A stretch of DNA of 64,000 nucleotides, from positions 1 through 64,000 of the forward strand of contig JAGQSC010000021.1 of NCBI GenBank assembly GCA_020439745.1, written 5' to 3'. Position numbers and translations under genes: made by a program. Shown here in pieces: positions 22,798-36,489 of the stretch. Positions within the stretch are counted from its first letter, which is position 1. Each line of letters opens with the position of its first letter. The notes under the pieces were generated by a model. That model ran no database searches. It had not been told where the DNA came from and saw only the letters and a program-made list of their open reading frames with translations. The stretch is from Acidobacteriota bacterium. GTDB lineage: Bacteria; Acidobacteriota; Holophagae; Acanthopleuribacterales; Acanthopleuribacteraceae.

Positions 22798-23265
22798 ATG
22801 ACTGGCTTGGTTCGTTGGTTCGCGTTGAGCTTGAGTTTATGGGCATTGTTGGGCTGTGCCACCGCAACTCCGAAATCCAAAAAACTGGATCGACACATCC
22901 TGGGCGCTGAACTGGAGTTTGGACGCAAGGCCGCGGCGTTCGATCTGTGGAACGAAGCAATTTTTCGTTGGGAGAAGGTGGTTCAGTCAGATCCTGACAA
23001 TCAAGATGCCATCAATAATCTAGCCGTTGCCTATGAATCGGTGGGTAACTACGAACGGGCTCGTGATCTCTACCAACATGCCTTGGAAATGGATGAAGAC
23101 AACAAGTCCATTCGGCAGAACTACAAACGGTTTCTGAACTTCTATAAGAAACATCAACGCCAAATCAAGCGCGAAGAAGCTCGAAAGAACCGAGAGGCCA
23201 ATGATGAAGCCGACGAAGACACATCTGCCGACGCAGACGACGAAGAAGGGGAGGACGAATCATGA
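22798..23265 (+). CDS. TPR-containing lipoprotein
   Basis: 155 residues. A lipobox (ALLGC at about residues 17-21) follows a hydrophobic signal, so the mature protein is lipid-anchored. Two to three TPR helices-turn-helices follow (DNQDAINNLAVAYESVGNYE). The C-terminus is highly charged and acidic (EADEDTSADADDEEGEDES). ATG 22798 has GAGAGGAG upstream; the frame extends further up without a ribosome site. It overlaps the next lipoprotein by 4 nt, suggesting a shared envelope complex with the two downstream proteins. Confidence 0.75.
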   Translation: MTGLVRWFALSLSLWALLGCATATPKSKKLDRHILGAELEFGRKAAAFDLWNEAIFRWEKVVQSDPDNQDAINNLAVAYESVGNYERARDLYQHALEMDEDNKSIRQNYKRFLNFYKKHQRQIKREEARKNREANDEADEDTSADADDEEGEDES

Positions 23266-23918
23266 GATGGTTGGCCCTTCCACTGGCTTTATTGACCCTT
23301 GCCTGTGCAGGCGACAAGAAAGCGGTGCGCATAGATTTGCCGCTTCCTCCCAAGCTGGATCTTTCTGAGTATGACGCAGTCTACTTTTCCGGATTCATTT
23401 CCACGGAACAGAACCGTGAATTTGATACGGTCACTGAAGCCATAAACTTCTTTAAGAATGAATTTGCCCAGCGGGACAACATCGACACACTGGATCGTGA
23501 TCCCGTGGATCTATCTGAATACGATCCCCGCGAATTCTTTGAGGGCGATCAGCCGTTTTTTGGTAATTTGGATGTTGAAGATGGGGACCGGGTTCTGACG
23601 GTAACTGGGGTCGTCAACTTCGAGGTCCTTGACCGTTCTGGATTCCGCCAAGTCCAGGCAACCGATATCTCAGGACAGTCCTATTACCGAACACAGTTTG
23701 TGGAGATGACGGGATACGTCCTGCGCATGCGCGTGTATGTCTACGAACTAGGCGAAGGCAAGCTGCTCTTTAAGGAACTCATGCAGGATGAAATCGACGT
23801 CGAAGGTCCCCCTGGCGATACACGATTGGCCTTTTACACCCTTTTGGAACGTATGTCTGATCGAGTGATTGGGTTGTTTGCGAACACAAAAGTACGAGCC
23901 GAACGAACGCTGCTATAA
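23262..23918 (+). CDS. Hypothetical lipoprotein
   Basis: 218 residues. A signal peptide with lipobox LTLAC marks lipid attachment. The rest is a mixed alpha/beta domain with many acidic residues and no recognised motif. It begins within the previous stop (ATGA) and ends 19 nt before the large peptidase-propeller-barrel gene, so the three are one operon. Its role is probably structural or assembly-related at the envelope, but this is inference from context. Confidence 0.7.
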   Translation: MRWLALPLALLTLACAGDKKAVRIDLPLPPKLDLSEYDAVYFSGFISTEQNREFDTVTEAINFFKNEFAQRDNIDTLDRDPVDLSEYDPREFFEGDQPFFGNLDVEDGDRVLTVTGVVNFEVLDRSGFRQVQATDISGQSYYRTQFVEMTGYVLRMRVYVYELGEGKLLFKELMQDEIDVEGPPGDTRLAFYTLLERMSDRVIGLFANTKVRAERTLL

Positions 23919-23937
23919 GAGCATTTGGAGGAATCTT

Positions 23938-26778
23938 GTGAAGAATCTACGAATTTGGATGGCACTGATCACATGGATGGGCCTTTCGGCACCCGTGTGG
24001 GCGGGTGGTAAGAACAAGATCCCATACGATGATTTTGAATGGCAGATCTACCAATCGGAACACTTCAAGGTCTTCTTTTATGAGGCTGAACGACATCTGT
24101 TGCCACAGGTTGTCGACATGGCTGAGGCAGCCTATGCCAACAACTCCGAATTGTTGCAGCACCAAATCAACTTCAAGGTTCCCCTGGTCATTTATAAAAC
24201 CCATGAAGAGTTCGAACAGACGAACATTTTTTCAGGCTTTATCCCGCGATACGTGGGCGCGTTTGCCGAGCCGTTTCAGTCACGTATGGTGCTCCCAATT
24301 GACCTACCGGAAGAAGAACTCTATCAATTGATCGCCCACGAACTCACGCACATCTTCCAATACGACATGTTGTTCAACAACAAAATTTCGACCATCATCC
24401 GCGCCAATGCGCCTACCTGGTTTATTGAAGGCATGGCATCGTATGTGGCGGATGACGAAAGTAATCTCGATCGAATGGTACTTCGCGATTCGGCGATCAA
24501 TTCCAATTTTGCCAGCTTGTCGCAGTTATCCTCGCTTTCGTTTCTCGCCTACCGAGTGGGTCATTCGGCCTTTGAGTTCATCGAGAAAGAGTACGGTATT
24601 GAAGGTGTGCGAAACTTGCTATGGGAGTACCGCAAGAACATTGGCGGATCGGTAGAGTCTGCTATTCGCAAAGCGCTGGATATTGAACCTGAAGAGTTTG
24701 ATCGCAAGTTCAAGAAGTATCTGCGCAAGCGCTACATCGATCTCCTTCCCGTTAAGGAAGAACCCGATGACTATGCTCGGGAGATCCGTACGCGAAAAGT
24801 GTTCACCACGCTTTCACCCGACCTATCGCCCAGCGGTGATTTGTTTGCGGCTTTTGTGCCCCTCAAGAACTCACTGGATTTGGTTTTGATTTCGACGAAA
24901 GACGGCCGTCTGTTTAAGAACCTGACGCCTGGATACACCAACGTCTATACCGAATTGTCCGTGAATCCCTTTAATGGAACCAATGATTTGGCCTGGAGCA
25001 CGGATGGCAATGAGATTGCCTTCATGGCCCGACGCGAAGGCACCAACATTCTCTTGGTCGTGAATGTGCTCACGGCCGAGATCGTTGAAAACATCAAATT
25101 CCCCAACATTAAGAGCCTTGAGTCTCCTTGTTTTGGTAAGGACAGCAACGATCTGTATTTCGTCGGAGATGAAAATGGACAGACAGACGTATTTCGTTTG
25201 AATCGCGCTACGGGACAGGCGGAGAACTTGACCAGAGACACTGAGTCCGATAAGAACCCGCGCATCTCGCCTGATGGCAAAGAGCTGGTTTACTCTTCGG
25301 ATCGAGACGGGTTTCTCAAGATCATGGTGCTGGACCTTGAGACGGGTGAAAAGACACAGATTACATCCGGCCTTGGGAACGATATCCAGGCATCATTTAG
25401 CCAGGACATGAGCAAGATCTACTTCAGTTCGGACCGTTACGAAGATATCTACAACATTTTCGGTGTGGAATTGGAGACGGGCAAACTCTTCAACTACACC
25501 GATGTGCTGACCGGAGCATTCTCGCCCCAGGAACGGATTGTTTTTGACCATCGTGAAGGTGAGGAAACCAAACAACTCGTGTTTACGGCCTACTACGAAG
25601 GCCGTTTCAGAATCTATCGCATGGATGATTTTGCCACCCGCGAACGTCCCTACGATGTGGGAAGCGACTCGTATTCCAACGTCAAGGATCACAAGATGTC
25701 GGTGGGACATACGCTGGACATGGAAAACTTCTCAGCCTACCGACTGAAGTCTAACTTCACCGTCAGTGGCGTGGATGTTACGGCAGGTGTGACCGATGAT
25801 GGCAGGTTTGTATCCAATACGGCCGTCGCATTTGGTGATGTTCTGGGCAATCACAATCTGTCGGTAAGCGCCTACTCGGTCTCAAGCTACGAGAGCTACA
25901 ATGCCGCCTATATCAACCGCAAAAACCGGTTGCAGTGGGGCGCCCAGCTGGATTCTTTCCAGTATTTCTTGGTCGATCGATATTTCCAGCCCGGTGAACG
26001 CATCGACAGACTCTATAAATACAACACCTTGATTGGGTACCTTCGCTATCCGTTCAGTTTATTTAGCCGTGTGGACATTGGCGGGGGCGTCACAGACCAA
26101 GACACCTATCGCCCTGTTCCATTTCGCGTGGGCGATGACCTTTTCTTCAACTACGAACAAGCCGATTTCACGGTGCCTATTGCCTTTATTGGTTTTTCAC
26201 GAGACACGCTTCGTTATCAGAGCTTTGGTCCCATCCAGGGTATGGGCTTCGACGCCACTTACACCGAAGCGTTTGGTGAGTTTCGCGCGGCCAATCTTGA
26301 GTTCAGGGCCTACAAGGAACTATCTCGCCGTTCCCTTTTCGCGTTCCGCTTAAGAGGAGATGCCAGTGAAGGCGATACGCCACAGTTGTTTTACCTCGGC
26401 GGTAATAACAACTTGAGAGGCGACTACTTCTACAATGAATTTGTAGGCACACGCCGTCTCTTGTCGCAAATGGAATGGCGATTCCCTCTGATTGATGCAC
26501 TGGTTTTTCCCGGCTTCGCATTGCAACAAATTCGCGGCAGTGTTTTCGTCGACGTGGGTGGCACCTGGTTCGAAGATTCAGATTTTGAATTTGAGTTTGA
26601 AGGCGACACGTTTAACGGTGATGACCCCAATCCTAATTTCCTGTTGGGGACCTATGGCCTCGACTTGAGTATGTATTTCTTTGGGCTTGAACTTCACTGG
26701 ACATGGGCTCGCCGTACGAACTTTGAAGAGTTTCCGTCGAACAGTCGATTCAGTTTCTGGATCGGTAGGACCTTCTAA
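23938..26778 (+). CDS. Peptidase-MA/TolB-propeller/outer-membrane barrel fusion
   Basis: About 946 residues. A signal peptide (about 1-22, APVWA) is followed by a gluzincin-type domain with HELTH (residues 134-138) and WFIEGMASY supplying a possible third ligand. Residues about 260-570 have TolB/PD40-type propeller repeats (LSPDLSPSGD, ISPDGKELVYSSDRDG, FSQDMSKIYFSSDR). The C-terminal ~370 residues look like a beta-barrel with alternating aromatic strands and end in WIGRTF, an aromatic outer-membrane signature. GTG 23938 is preceded by GGAGG. It could be a surface protease that threads or matures partners. Confidence 0.78.
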   Translation: MKNLRIWMALITWMGLSAPVWAGGKNKIPYDDFEWQIYQSEHFKVFFYEAERHLLPQVVDMAEAAYANNSELLQHQINFKVPLVIYKTHEEFEQTNIFSGFIPRYVGAFAEPFQSRMVLPIDLPEEELYQLIAHELTHIFQYDMLFNNKISTIIRANAPTWFIEGMASYVADDESNLDRMVLRDSAINSNFASLSQLSSLSFLAYRVGHSAFEFIEKEYGIEGVRNLLWEYRKNIGGSVESAIRKALDIEPEEFDRKFKKYLRKRYIDLLPVKEEPDDYAREIRTRKVFTTLSPDLSPSGDLFAAFVPLKNSLDLVLISTKDGRLFKNLTPGYTNVYTELSVNPFNGTNDLAWSTDGNEIAFMARREGTNILLVVNVLTAEIVENIKFPNIKSLESPCFGKDSNDLYFVGDENGQTDVFRLNRATGQAENLTRDTESDKNPRISPDGKELVYSSDRDGFLKIMVLDLETGEKTQITSGLGNDIQASFSQDMSKIYFSSDRYEDIYNIFGVELETGKLFNYTDVLTGAFSPQERIVFDHREGEETKQLVFTAYYEGRFRIYRMDDFATRERPYDVGSDSYSNVKDHKMSVGHTLDMENFSAYRLKSNFTVSGVDVTAGVTDDGRFVSNTAVAFGDVLGNHNLSVSAYSVSSYESYNAAYINRKNRLQWGAQLDSFQYFLVDRYFQPGERIDRLYKYNTLIGYLRYPFSLFSRVDIGGGVTDQDTYRPVPFRVGDDLFFNYEQADFTVPIAFIGFSRDTLRYQSFGPIQGMGFDATYTEAFGEFRAANLEFRAYKELSRRSLFAFRLRGDASEGDTPQLFYLGGNNNLRGDYFYNEFVGTRRLLSQMEWRFPLIDALVFPGFALQQIRGSVFVDVGGTWFEDSDFEFEFEGDTFNGDDPNPNFLLGTYGLDLSMYFFGLELHWTWARRTNFEEFPSNSRFSFWIGRTF

Positions 26779-34685: not shown

Positions 34686-35096
34686 ATGACGATCAAAGCT
34701 CAGTGTTTATGTAAGTCTGTAACGCTCGAGTTGAAGGACCCACCCACCAGGGTAGGCGTTTGCCATTGCAACATGTGTCGCAACTGGGGTGGCGGGCCCA
34801 TGATGACGATTGAGGCTGGATCGTCGGTGTCCATTAGTGGCGATCCGGTCAAGGTGTTCGATTCGTCGGATTGGGCAGAACGCGGCTTTTGCGGGTCCTG
34901 TGGCAGTCACCTTTTCTATCGCTTCAAGGCGACGGGTGACACCTATCTACCTGTTGGCTTGTTTGCAGTGGATCAGGTTCTTTTCGACCACGAGATCTTT
35001 ATCGATGAGAAACCCCAATGGTATGACTTTGCCAATGACACCAAGAAGATGACGGGTGCGCAGGTGATTGCCATGTTTACTGGTTCCGATCTTTGA
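34686..35096 (+). CDS. GFA (glutathione-dependent formaldehyde-activating)-like protein
   Basis: 136 residues, CENP-V/GFA fold. Zinc cysteines occur as CLC near the start, CHCNMCR, and CGSCGSH. ATG 34686 has GGAGG 5 nt upstream. Most GFA-fold proteins have unproven substrates, so a formaldehyde role should not be assumed. It is first in a tight operon; its stop overlaps the dtd start. Confidence 0.85.
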
Positions 35097-35551
35097 GAGC
35101 GGTTGTTCAGCGTGTCATTGAAGCTAAAGTGACCGTGGATGGTTCCGTGGTAGGGTCCATAGATAAGGGATTACTGATATTGCTGGGTGTGGCTGACGAC
35201 GATGATCCACAAACCGTAAACCTTATGGCGGAAAAATTGGTGCACTTGCGCATTTTTCCCGATGACGACGGGCGGTTCAATCACAGTTTGCTTGAAATAG
35301 GTGGGTCTGCTTTAGTGGTGTCACAGTTCACGCTGTTTGCTGATACCCGAAAGGGAAGACGTCCCTCCTTTTCAGGCGCGGGTCATCCCGATCATGCCGC
35401 ACCGCTTGTGGATGCCATGGTGCTGGCTCTAAAGGATCTACAGGTAGTGCACGTCGCATCAGGTCGCTTTGGTGCGGCCATGCAGGTGTCGTTGACAAAT
35501 GACGGACCAGTGACATTGGTGCTAGACACCAGTGAATGGCTGAGGAGATAG
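35093..35551 (+). CDS. dtd: D-aminoacyl-tRNA deacylase
   Basis: 152 residues. [16 protein letters not shown] at the N-terminus, [18 protein letters not shown] with the catalytic threonine region, and NDGPVT with the Gly-cisPro motif. It removes D-amino acids from tRNA. The start is TTG 35093, overlapping the upstream stop as TTGA, so it is read by coupling. Confidence 0.95.
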
Positions 35552-35553
35552 AC

Positions 35554-36489
35554 ATGACATTGATCGTGCACCATCCAGAATGCCTGGAACATGATACGGG
35601 CCCAGGCCATCCGGAAAATGCGAATCGTATCAAGGCCATTTATCAACAACTCAAGGCCTCAGGTGTCGCCGATGATTGCGAATGGACTGAAGCTGAGGAG
35701 GTGGACGATGCGACCTTGTTGGAGGTGCACTCGGAGGTGTATGTCGATCGCGTGGCAGATCGAATCGAAAGCGGAGCCGTAATCCTGGATGCCGGAGATA
35801 CGTCGGTCTGCCCCAACTCACATACGGCTGCGAGGCTTGCTGCCGGTGCCGCCAGAACAGCCTTAGATGCCATTGCCCGAGGAGATCACAATCACGCGTT
35901 TTTGTTGGTACGCCCACCGGGCCATCATGCCGAGAAGGCCCGGGCCATGGGTTTTTGTATATTCAACAACGTGGCCGTTGCCGCGCGCTATGCTCAAAAG
36001 TCAGGGTTGGCGGAACGAGTATTAATCGTGGATTGGGATGTCCACCACGGCAACGGAACGCAACATATTTTTGAAGAGGACCCCTCCGTCTTCTATTACA
36101 GCATTCACCAGTTCCCCTACTATCCTGGCACAGGGGCATCTACCGATCGCGGGAAGGGGGAAGGACTGGGCGCAACGCTGAATCGGCCCGTGCCACCTGG
36201 AACCCCGGCAAGTCAGTTCATGGGCTTTGTGGAAAAAGATCTTAAGCATATTGAGACCGATTTTAAGCCTGATCTCGTGCTGGTATCTGCGGGATTTGAC
36301 GCCCATCGGGCTGATCCTTTGGGTGGACAAATGCTCGATGAAGAGGATTTCAAAACCTTGACCGCCATGACCCTGGATATTGCTCGTCGTTGTTCCAAAT
36401 CACGTTACCTGTCGGTATTGGAAGGCGGATACGAACTGGATGCTTTAGGGCGTTCCGTTCAGGCGCATATTCAGGAATTGTTGTCTTGA
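35554..36489 (+). CDS. Histone deacetylase-family deacetylase (class II-like/AcuC-like)
   Basis: 311 residues. VRPPGHHAE holds the active-site histidines. [11 protein letters not shown] and [14 protein letters not shown] hold the zinc aspartates and histidine. GGYELDAL closes the active site. Bacterial relatives deacetylate acetyl-lysine in proteins (AcuC), acetylpolyamines or other acetylamines; the substrate is unknown. ATG 35554 follows the dtd stop by 2 nt. Confidence 0.9.

Follow-up and report, generated by a model that had tools for sequence, protein, structure and literature searches.

The DNA analysed here (the window) is a 64,000-nucleotide stretch of an Acidobacteriota genome of the family Acanthopleuribacteraceae (contig JAGQSC010000021.1 of assembly GCA_020439745.1, positions 1 to 64,000 of the forward strand). 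Three of its consecutive genes are considered, coding for two small proteins, P0002 and P0003, and for P0001, in which a gluzincin-type zinc peptidase, a six-bladed TolB-like propeller and a 16-strand barrel of the Omp85 type follow each other in one chain. All three open reading frames were found where the original prediction had placed them, with those of P0002 and P0003 overlapping by 4 bp and P0001 beginning 19 bp after P0003. Their features are as follows (+, forward strand; aa, amino acids).

22798..23265, +: P0002 (helper protein 1), 155-aa tetratricopeptide repeat (TPR) protein, lipobox with Cys20; TPR_2 1.1e-8
23262..23918, +: P0003 (helper protein 2), 218 aa, lipobox-like Cys15; no Pfam match; FlgT/PelC/CsgG/TolB-D1 fold predicted via a homologous domain
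23938..26778, +: P0001, 946-aa peptidase-propeller-Omp85 fusion; GTG start with GGAGG upstream
24007..24747, +: P0001 residues 24-270, gluzincin-like zinc-peptidase domain (profile, alignment, model)
24337..24351, +: HELTH motif, residues 134-138; H134, E135 and H138 invariant (35/35)
24427..24429, +: Glu164 in PTWFIEGMA, presumed third zinc ligand; invariant (35/35)
24790..25626, +: residues 285-563, six-bladed TolB-like propeller (profiles, model, Z 25.8)
25627..25755, +: residues 564-606, poorly conserved linker; no POTRA domain recognised
25756..26775, +: residues 607-946, 16-strand Omp85-type outer-membrane barrel (profiles, model, structure comparison)
26413..26424, +: LRGD, Omp85 loop-6 (VRGF-type) motif between strands 11 and 12; R827 and G828 invariant (35/35)

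Architecture and conservation of P0001

Conservation was followed in an alignment (A1) of 35 P0001 homologues sharing 34-79% identity with the window protein, a set which indicates that P0001 is not a chance product. The residues H134, E135, H138 and E164 are present in all 35 homologues, down to 34% identity, and lie in the gluzincin layout, i.e. HExxH followed by WxxEGxA. As for profiles, Peptidase_MA_2 (PF13485) scores 24.0 bits on P0001 (expectation value, E, of 3.8e-5), below its curated cut-off of 32.4 bits, and is matched by 26 of the 35 homologues at E ≤ 0.01. Because of this score, the domain is classed by sequence as gluzincin-like only, outside the membership of PF13485. No M48 profile was found for P0001 among the Pfam matches listed to E 10, a level at which the hmmscan filters may drop weak matches, and an NCBIfam match to HtpX stayed far below threshold (13.1 vs. 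369 bits). The AlphaFold2 model of P0001 (mean predicted local distance difference test, pLDDT, of 84.5; predicted template modelling score, pTM, of 0.80) gives residues 24-270 as a mixed alpha/beta N-terminal domain.

The peptidase is the best conserved domain of the protein, with a mean pairwise column identity of 0.54 in A1 against 0.45 in the propeller and 0.38 in the barrel; the linker reaches 0.24. The nearest relative found, the sole match in the genome-contig scan, belongs to a Holophagae bacterium of the same genus (79% identity). Compared with it, P0001 is under purifying selection, the proportion of non-synonymous differences (pN) being 0.14-0.20 and that of synonymous differences (pS) 0.75-0.87, the latter near or at saturation.

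Concerning the propeller, PD40 repeats were detected by Pfam (7.7e-15), and the modelled domain superimposes on TolB with a Z of 25.8 and 2.6 Å across 247 residues (Foldseek and VIA-align). The NCBIfam TolB equivalog, TIGR02800, gives a partial match of 128 bits, far under its cut-off of 343, and P0001 has no TolB_N. No POTRA profile matched P0001, whose model passes from the propeller through the short linker directly into the barrel.

Sixteen barrel strands were counted in the model (residues 607-942), and the barrel aligns with those of BamA and TamA at Z 21-22.9, with about 4-5 Å over 276-303 residues (Foldseek and VIA-align). The Omp85 profile PF01103 lies marginally over its cut-off in the genome scan (24.2 vs. 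24 bits) and is matched by 4 of the 35 homologues at E ≤ 0.01, the best at 7.1e-13. Searched against the PDB, the A1 profile hit a POTRA-containing protein (9ccg, 1.3e-6) and Deinococcus BamA (8xnb, 0.0015). The long loop joining strands 11 and 12 bears the LRG motif typical of Omp85 loop 6, read as LRGD in the family of the window genome and elsewhere mostly as LRGY or LRGF, and this motif and strands 12-13 are well conserved in A1. The barrel is assigned to the protein-assembly/translocation (Omp85) type. A misread barrel, which would leave P0001 a propeller protein only, is ruled out by the model, the structure comparison and the Omp85 profile. The metallopeptidase-propeller-barrel fusion put forward in the original prediction is real, including the barrel, which structure prediction of the 946-residue protein recovered.

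The partner proteins and their linkage to P0001

P0002 is a short TPR protein, for which generic TPR families dominate and no BamD/YfiO profile appears among the best 25 Pfam matches or the NCBIfam matches listed. P0003 has no Pfam match to E 10 and no NCBIfam match to E 1. In nine loci from three families (f26, f56 and f65; loci L044, L045, L046, L047, L049, L050, L052, L058 and L059), the homologues of P0002 and P0003 form a single open reading frame. A single fusion event is sufficient to account for them, since the nine loci form one branch of the P0001 tree with 100/100 support. The model of one of these fused proteins (L047:266-1312; pLDDT 90.7) shows TPR repeats followed by a P0003-type domain, whose closest structural matches are part of FlgT (Z 15.2) and PelC (Z 13.7), with PqiC, CsgG and the TolB N-terminal domain (about Z 10.5) also similar. 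The window P0003, sharing ~28% identity with the modelled fused protein, is predicted by homology to have the same FlgT/PelC/CsgG/TolB-D1-type fold.

Both upstream proteins of the window genome fit a PROSITE-type lipobox pattern (LWALLGC and LLTLAC), in agreement with the overlapping lipoprotein pair described before. Among relatives, the pattern, whose counts are lower bounds, was found in at least 14 of 43 P0003, at least 8 of 40 P0002 and at least 1 of 9 fused proteins, and many of them seem, from their sequences, to carry ordinary signal peptides. Lipid anchoring, its pattern being found in only a minority, is therefore not retained as a required feature; judged by these motifs, lipidation is not a fixed trait of the system, and the term "two lipoproteins" holds for the window genome.

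The distribution of P0001 was established in 396 Acidobacteriota genomes, where it was counted at E < 1e-30, well above the TolB background. Homologues are present in 196 genomes, including 7 of the 7 sampled from the family of the window genome, while the other two families of its class gave only TolB-type matches. A P0003 profile search retrieved this family in 159 genomes, 157 of which also possess P0001 (Fisher odds ratio of 399, uncorrected for shared ancestry). A P0003 homologue without a detected P0001 was observed in two genomes, G339 (L111, on G339:C9), where a TPR neighbour is present, and G286.

In the first 34 loci examined, homologues of P0002 and P0003 lie directly upstream of P0001, one locus ending at a contig edge before the TPR gene. 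Where both best matches could be placed (139 genomes), P0003 is directly upstream of P0001 on the same strand in 105 cases, with a gap of 20-389 bp. The 34 unlinked cases come from a group of families including f16, f24, f29, f33, f44, f46, f58, f62, f75 and f84. Seven of these unlinked loci were read (L098-L102, L108 and L109, with the P0001 of five genomes at L103-L107 and that of a sixth at L110), and in all seven a P0002-type TPR gene precedes P0003 and P0001 is not within the stretch. The conservation of the trio as one unit stands for most of the placed pairs, the separation of its genes in relatives being confined to P0001 vs. an intact pair in one group of families. From the pair kept together in 7/7 loci, it follows that P0002 and P0003 are the tighter unit and P0001 their regular companion.

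A search of plasmids returned one barrel-less relative and two propeller-only matches. The former, on plasmid pSR116 of Salinibacter ruber (L092:7902-9803), is related to about the first 570 residues of P0001 (26% identity) and shares its FGKNK start together with HELVH and WLIEGMA motifs. Since this relative has no barrel, the peptidase-propeller module is separable from the latter. Its gene adjoins one whose product matches serine carboxypeptidase S10.

Relation to known systems and possible function

In bacteria, mitochondria and chloroplasts alike, the outer membrane is built by Omp85 proteins. Ten subfamilies are distinguished in the main text of Heinz & Lithgow (2014; PMC4104836), among them WD40-Omp85, in which a TolB-like propeller precedes the barrel and which is described there as reminiscent of a BamA-BamB fusion, and "Metallo", based on PF00149. 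P0001 resembles WD40-Omp85 in its TolB-type propeller placed directly N-terminal to an Omp85 barrel, without POTRA. PF00149, for its part, is a calcineurin-like phosphoesterase model and not a peptidase. The P0001 system differs in its N-terminal peptidase and its partners, neither of which is mentioned in the main text of PMC4104836, nor are Acidobacteria. A paper of 2024 still counts the WD40-like subfamily among those not well characterised (PMC11116518), and a literature search, confined for the most part to papers free of subscription, retrieved no description of a peptidase or of two partners for propeller-Omp85 proteins. The P0001 system can be seen as a form of WD40-Omp85 to which a peptidase and two constant partners are added; propeller-Omp85 proteins have been named since 2014, and the N-terminal peptidase and the two partners are new within the literature covered.

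Other systems share parts of this arrangement. The BamA-BamB pair, with BamD, likewise unites an Omp85 barrel, a propeller and a TPR lipoprotein in one unit, whereas P0001 joins barrel and TolB-type propeller in one chain, without POTRA and with a built-in peptidase. P0002 is a small TPR protein, and a canonical BamA is present in the genome as well. BepA (M48 and TPR) offers an HExxH zinc peptidase at an Omp85 barrel with TPR repeats nearby, while the peptidase of P0001 is of a different family and fused to propeller and barrel, the TPR being on a separate protein. In PlpD, too, an Omp85 barrel is preceded by an enzyme domain, but the latter is a patatin-like lipase, and PlpD is a homodimer with a POTRA domain and no propeller. 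P0003 has the fold of FlgT, PelC and CsgG at about 11-16% identity, with no profile match and in another gene context.

Elsewhere, the window genome codes for a canonical BamA with five matches to POTRA, another POTRA-Omp85, a patatin-Omp85 and a true TolB that includes the N-terminal domain (TolB_N). The PlpD-like patatin-Omp85 is located on the same contig, beyond the window (L095, G000:C2:225337-228582). P0001 as the BamA or TolB of this genome is ruled out, as both are encoded elsewhere; on this gene content, it is an addition to BAM (the beta-barrel assembly machinery) and Tol-Pal. On the same grounds, the earlier suggestion of a self-contained system is not supported.

The reading we favour, tentatively and at somewhat below even chances, is that the trio is a periplasmic zinc-peptidase machine tethered to the outer membrane, which would process or clear client envelope proteins. 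It builds on the architecture found by model and profiles, on the conserved residues, on the gene linkage and on the fusion. As to topology, other Omp85 proteins suggest a barrel lying in the outer membrane and N-terminal domains located in the periplasm; the peptidase is placed there because the enzyme domain of PlpD is periplasmic (PMC11116518). P0002 and P0003 would act as a pair, docking on the propeller/peptidase side and recruiting or positioning clients. An envelope protein, be it an outer-membrane, exported or surface protein, may engage the barrel or its seam, where it would be held or selected by the propeller and the helper pair and cut by the zinc peptidase, either clearing stalled clients or maturing them. 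A zinc peptidase acting on outer-membrane proteins is suggested by the precedent of BepA at BAM, which crosslinks to BamA, BamC and BamD and degrades stalled outer-membrane proteins (PMC13067283). The working likeness would be BamA, BamB and a BepA-like peptidase in one chain, with a TPR partner in the place of BamD. Within this reading, quality control of outer-membrane proteins is ranked somewhat ahead of dedicated maturation.

Four points weigh against it. P0001 lacks POTRA domains, the part of BamA where clients are usually handled and docking takes place. The peptidase, as judged by its sequence, falls outside M48, the family to which BepA belongs. P0001 is absent from about half of the genomes sampled, among them those of the class's two other families, and is therefore not essential to an outer membrane. 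Finally, the best P0003 match lies away from P0001 in 34 of 139 genomes.

A more specific form of the periplasmic-peptidase reading is possible and more doubtful, namely a proteolytic Omp85 system characteristic of the phylum and distinct from BAM, TAM (the translocation and assembly module) and two-partner secretion, in which barrel, propeller and an active zinc peptidase would make up a single enzyme that, with a dedicated TPR/TolB-D1-like pair, would cut clients during their insertion into the outer membrane or passage across it. If true, proteolysis and barrel-mediated assembly would be united in one molecule. The propeller-Omp85 subfamily comes here with a zinc-peptidase site that is fully conserved and with two constant partners, naturally fused in one clade, which provides concrete genes, residues and interactions for testing in a large phylum.

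The best surviving alternative, although rather unlikely, is dedicated secretion or maturation, in which the barrel, in the manner of FhaC, would export (or insert) a particular class of secreted or surface proteins, the peptidase trimming them during passage. Omp85 barrels do include translocases, the loop-6 motif is invariant and four P0001 homologues also match the ShlB/FhaC profile; however, no client is co-encoded, the conserved neighbours being unrelated housekeeping genes (topA, dprA, ftsE-ftsX and purine genes), and P0001 is devoid of the POTRA domains used by FhaC for client binding. With still less probability, the trio would be an envelope factor resembling Tol-Pal or linked to the cell wall, in which the propeller would make up a split TolB together with the TolB-D1-like P0003, and regulators of the envelope would be the targets of the peptidase. 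The propeller is indeed closest to TolB, the P0003-type fold includes TolB D1 (Z 10.5) and the locus abuts ftsE-ftsX in one clade, but the genome has a complete TolB, including TolB_N, at another site, and ftsE-ftsX are convergent rather than in one operon and are not neighbours in other clades. A barrel serving as a mere membrane anchor, with the peptidase displayed on the surface or acting on extracellular proteins, would fit the high conservation of the peptidase domain and the barrel-less Salinibacter relative; it is quite improbable given the periplasmic enzyme domain of PlpD (PMC11116518) and a loop-6 motif and strands 12-13 conserved beyond the need of an inert anchor. That the HExxH fold is kept for structure or zinc only, in a peptidase-dead scaffold, could be read from the Peptidase_MA_2 score below the cut-off, yet the invariance of the four catalytic/zinc residues in 35/35 homologues, down to 34% identity, makes this the least credible of all.

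Genomic surroundings

A PHROGs search with P0001, P0002 and P0003 gave zero matches for all three, and a phage origin of the trio was ruled out on this ground. No RNA genes were found in the window, and the number of promoter and terminator sites detected by scanning it was not above that of shuffled sequence.

The neighbours of P0001 vary by clade and look like housekeeping genes, including topA/dprA, ftsE-ftsX, purine genes and metallo-beta-lactamases. Since they differ between clades, they were dropped as a clue to function, and no client gene was found near P0001 across the examined loci. The convergent ftsE-ftsX genes adjoin P0001 in one large clade (L074, L076, L078 and L082); elsewhere, topA/dprA or purine genes are found.

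In the window, the region 3' of P0001 (26879-31150) starts with a methyltransferase gene, which also lies near P0001 in all but one of the family's six other genomes. It is followed by genes for a short-chain dehydrogenase/reductase, an acyl-carrier-like protein, a FabA-like protein and a ketosynthase, together with a 213-aa protein without Pfam match. As a whole, these genes resemble a small fatty-acid-type synthesis cluster, which the same-genus genome also possesses. Further along (35093-36489), the gene of a histone-deacetylase-family protein overlaps that of a D-Tyr-tRNA deacylase.

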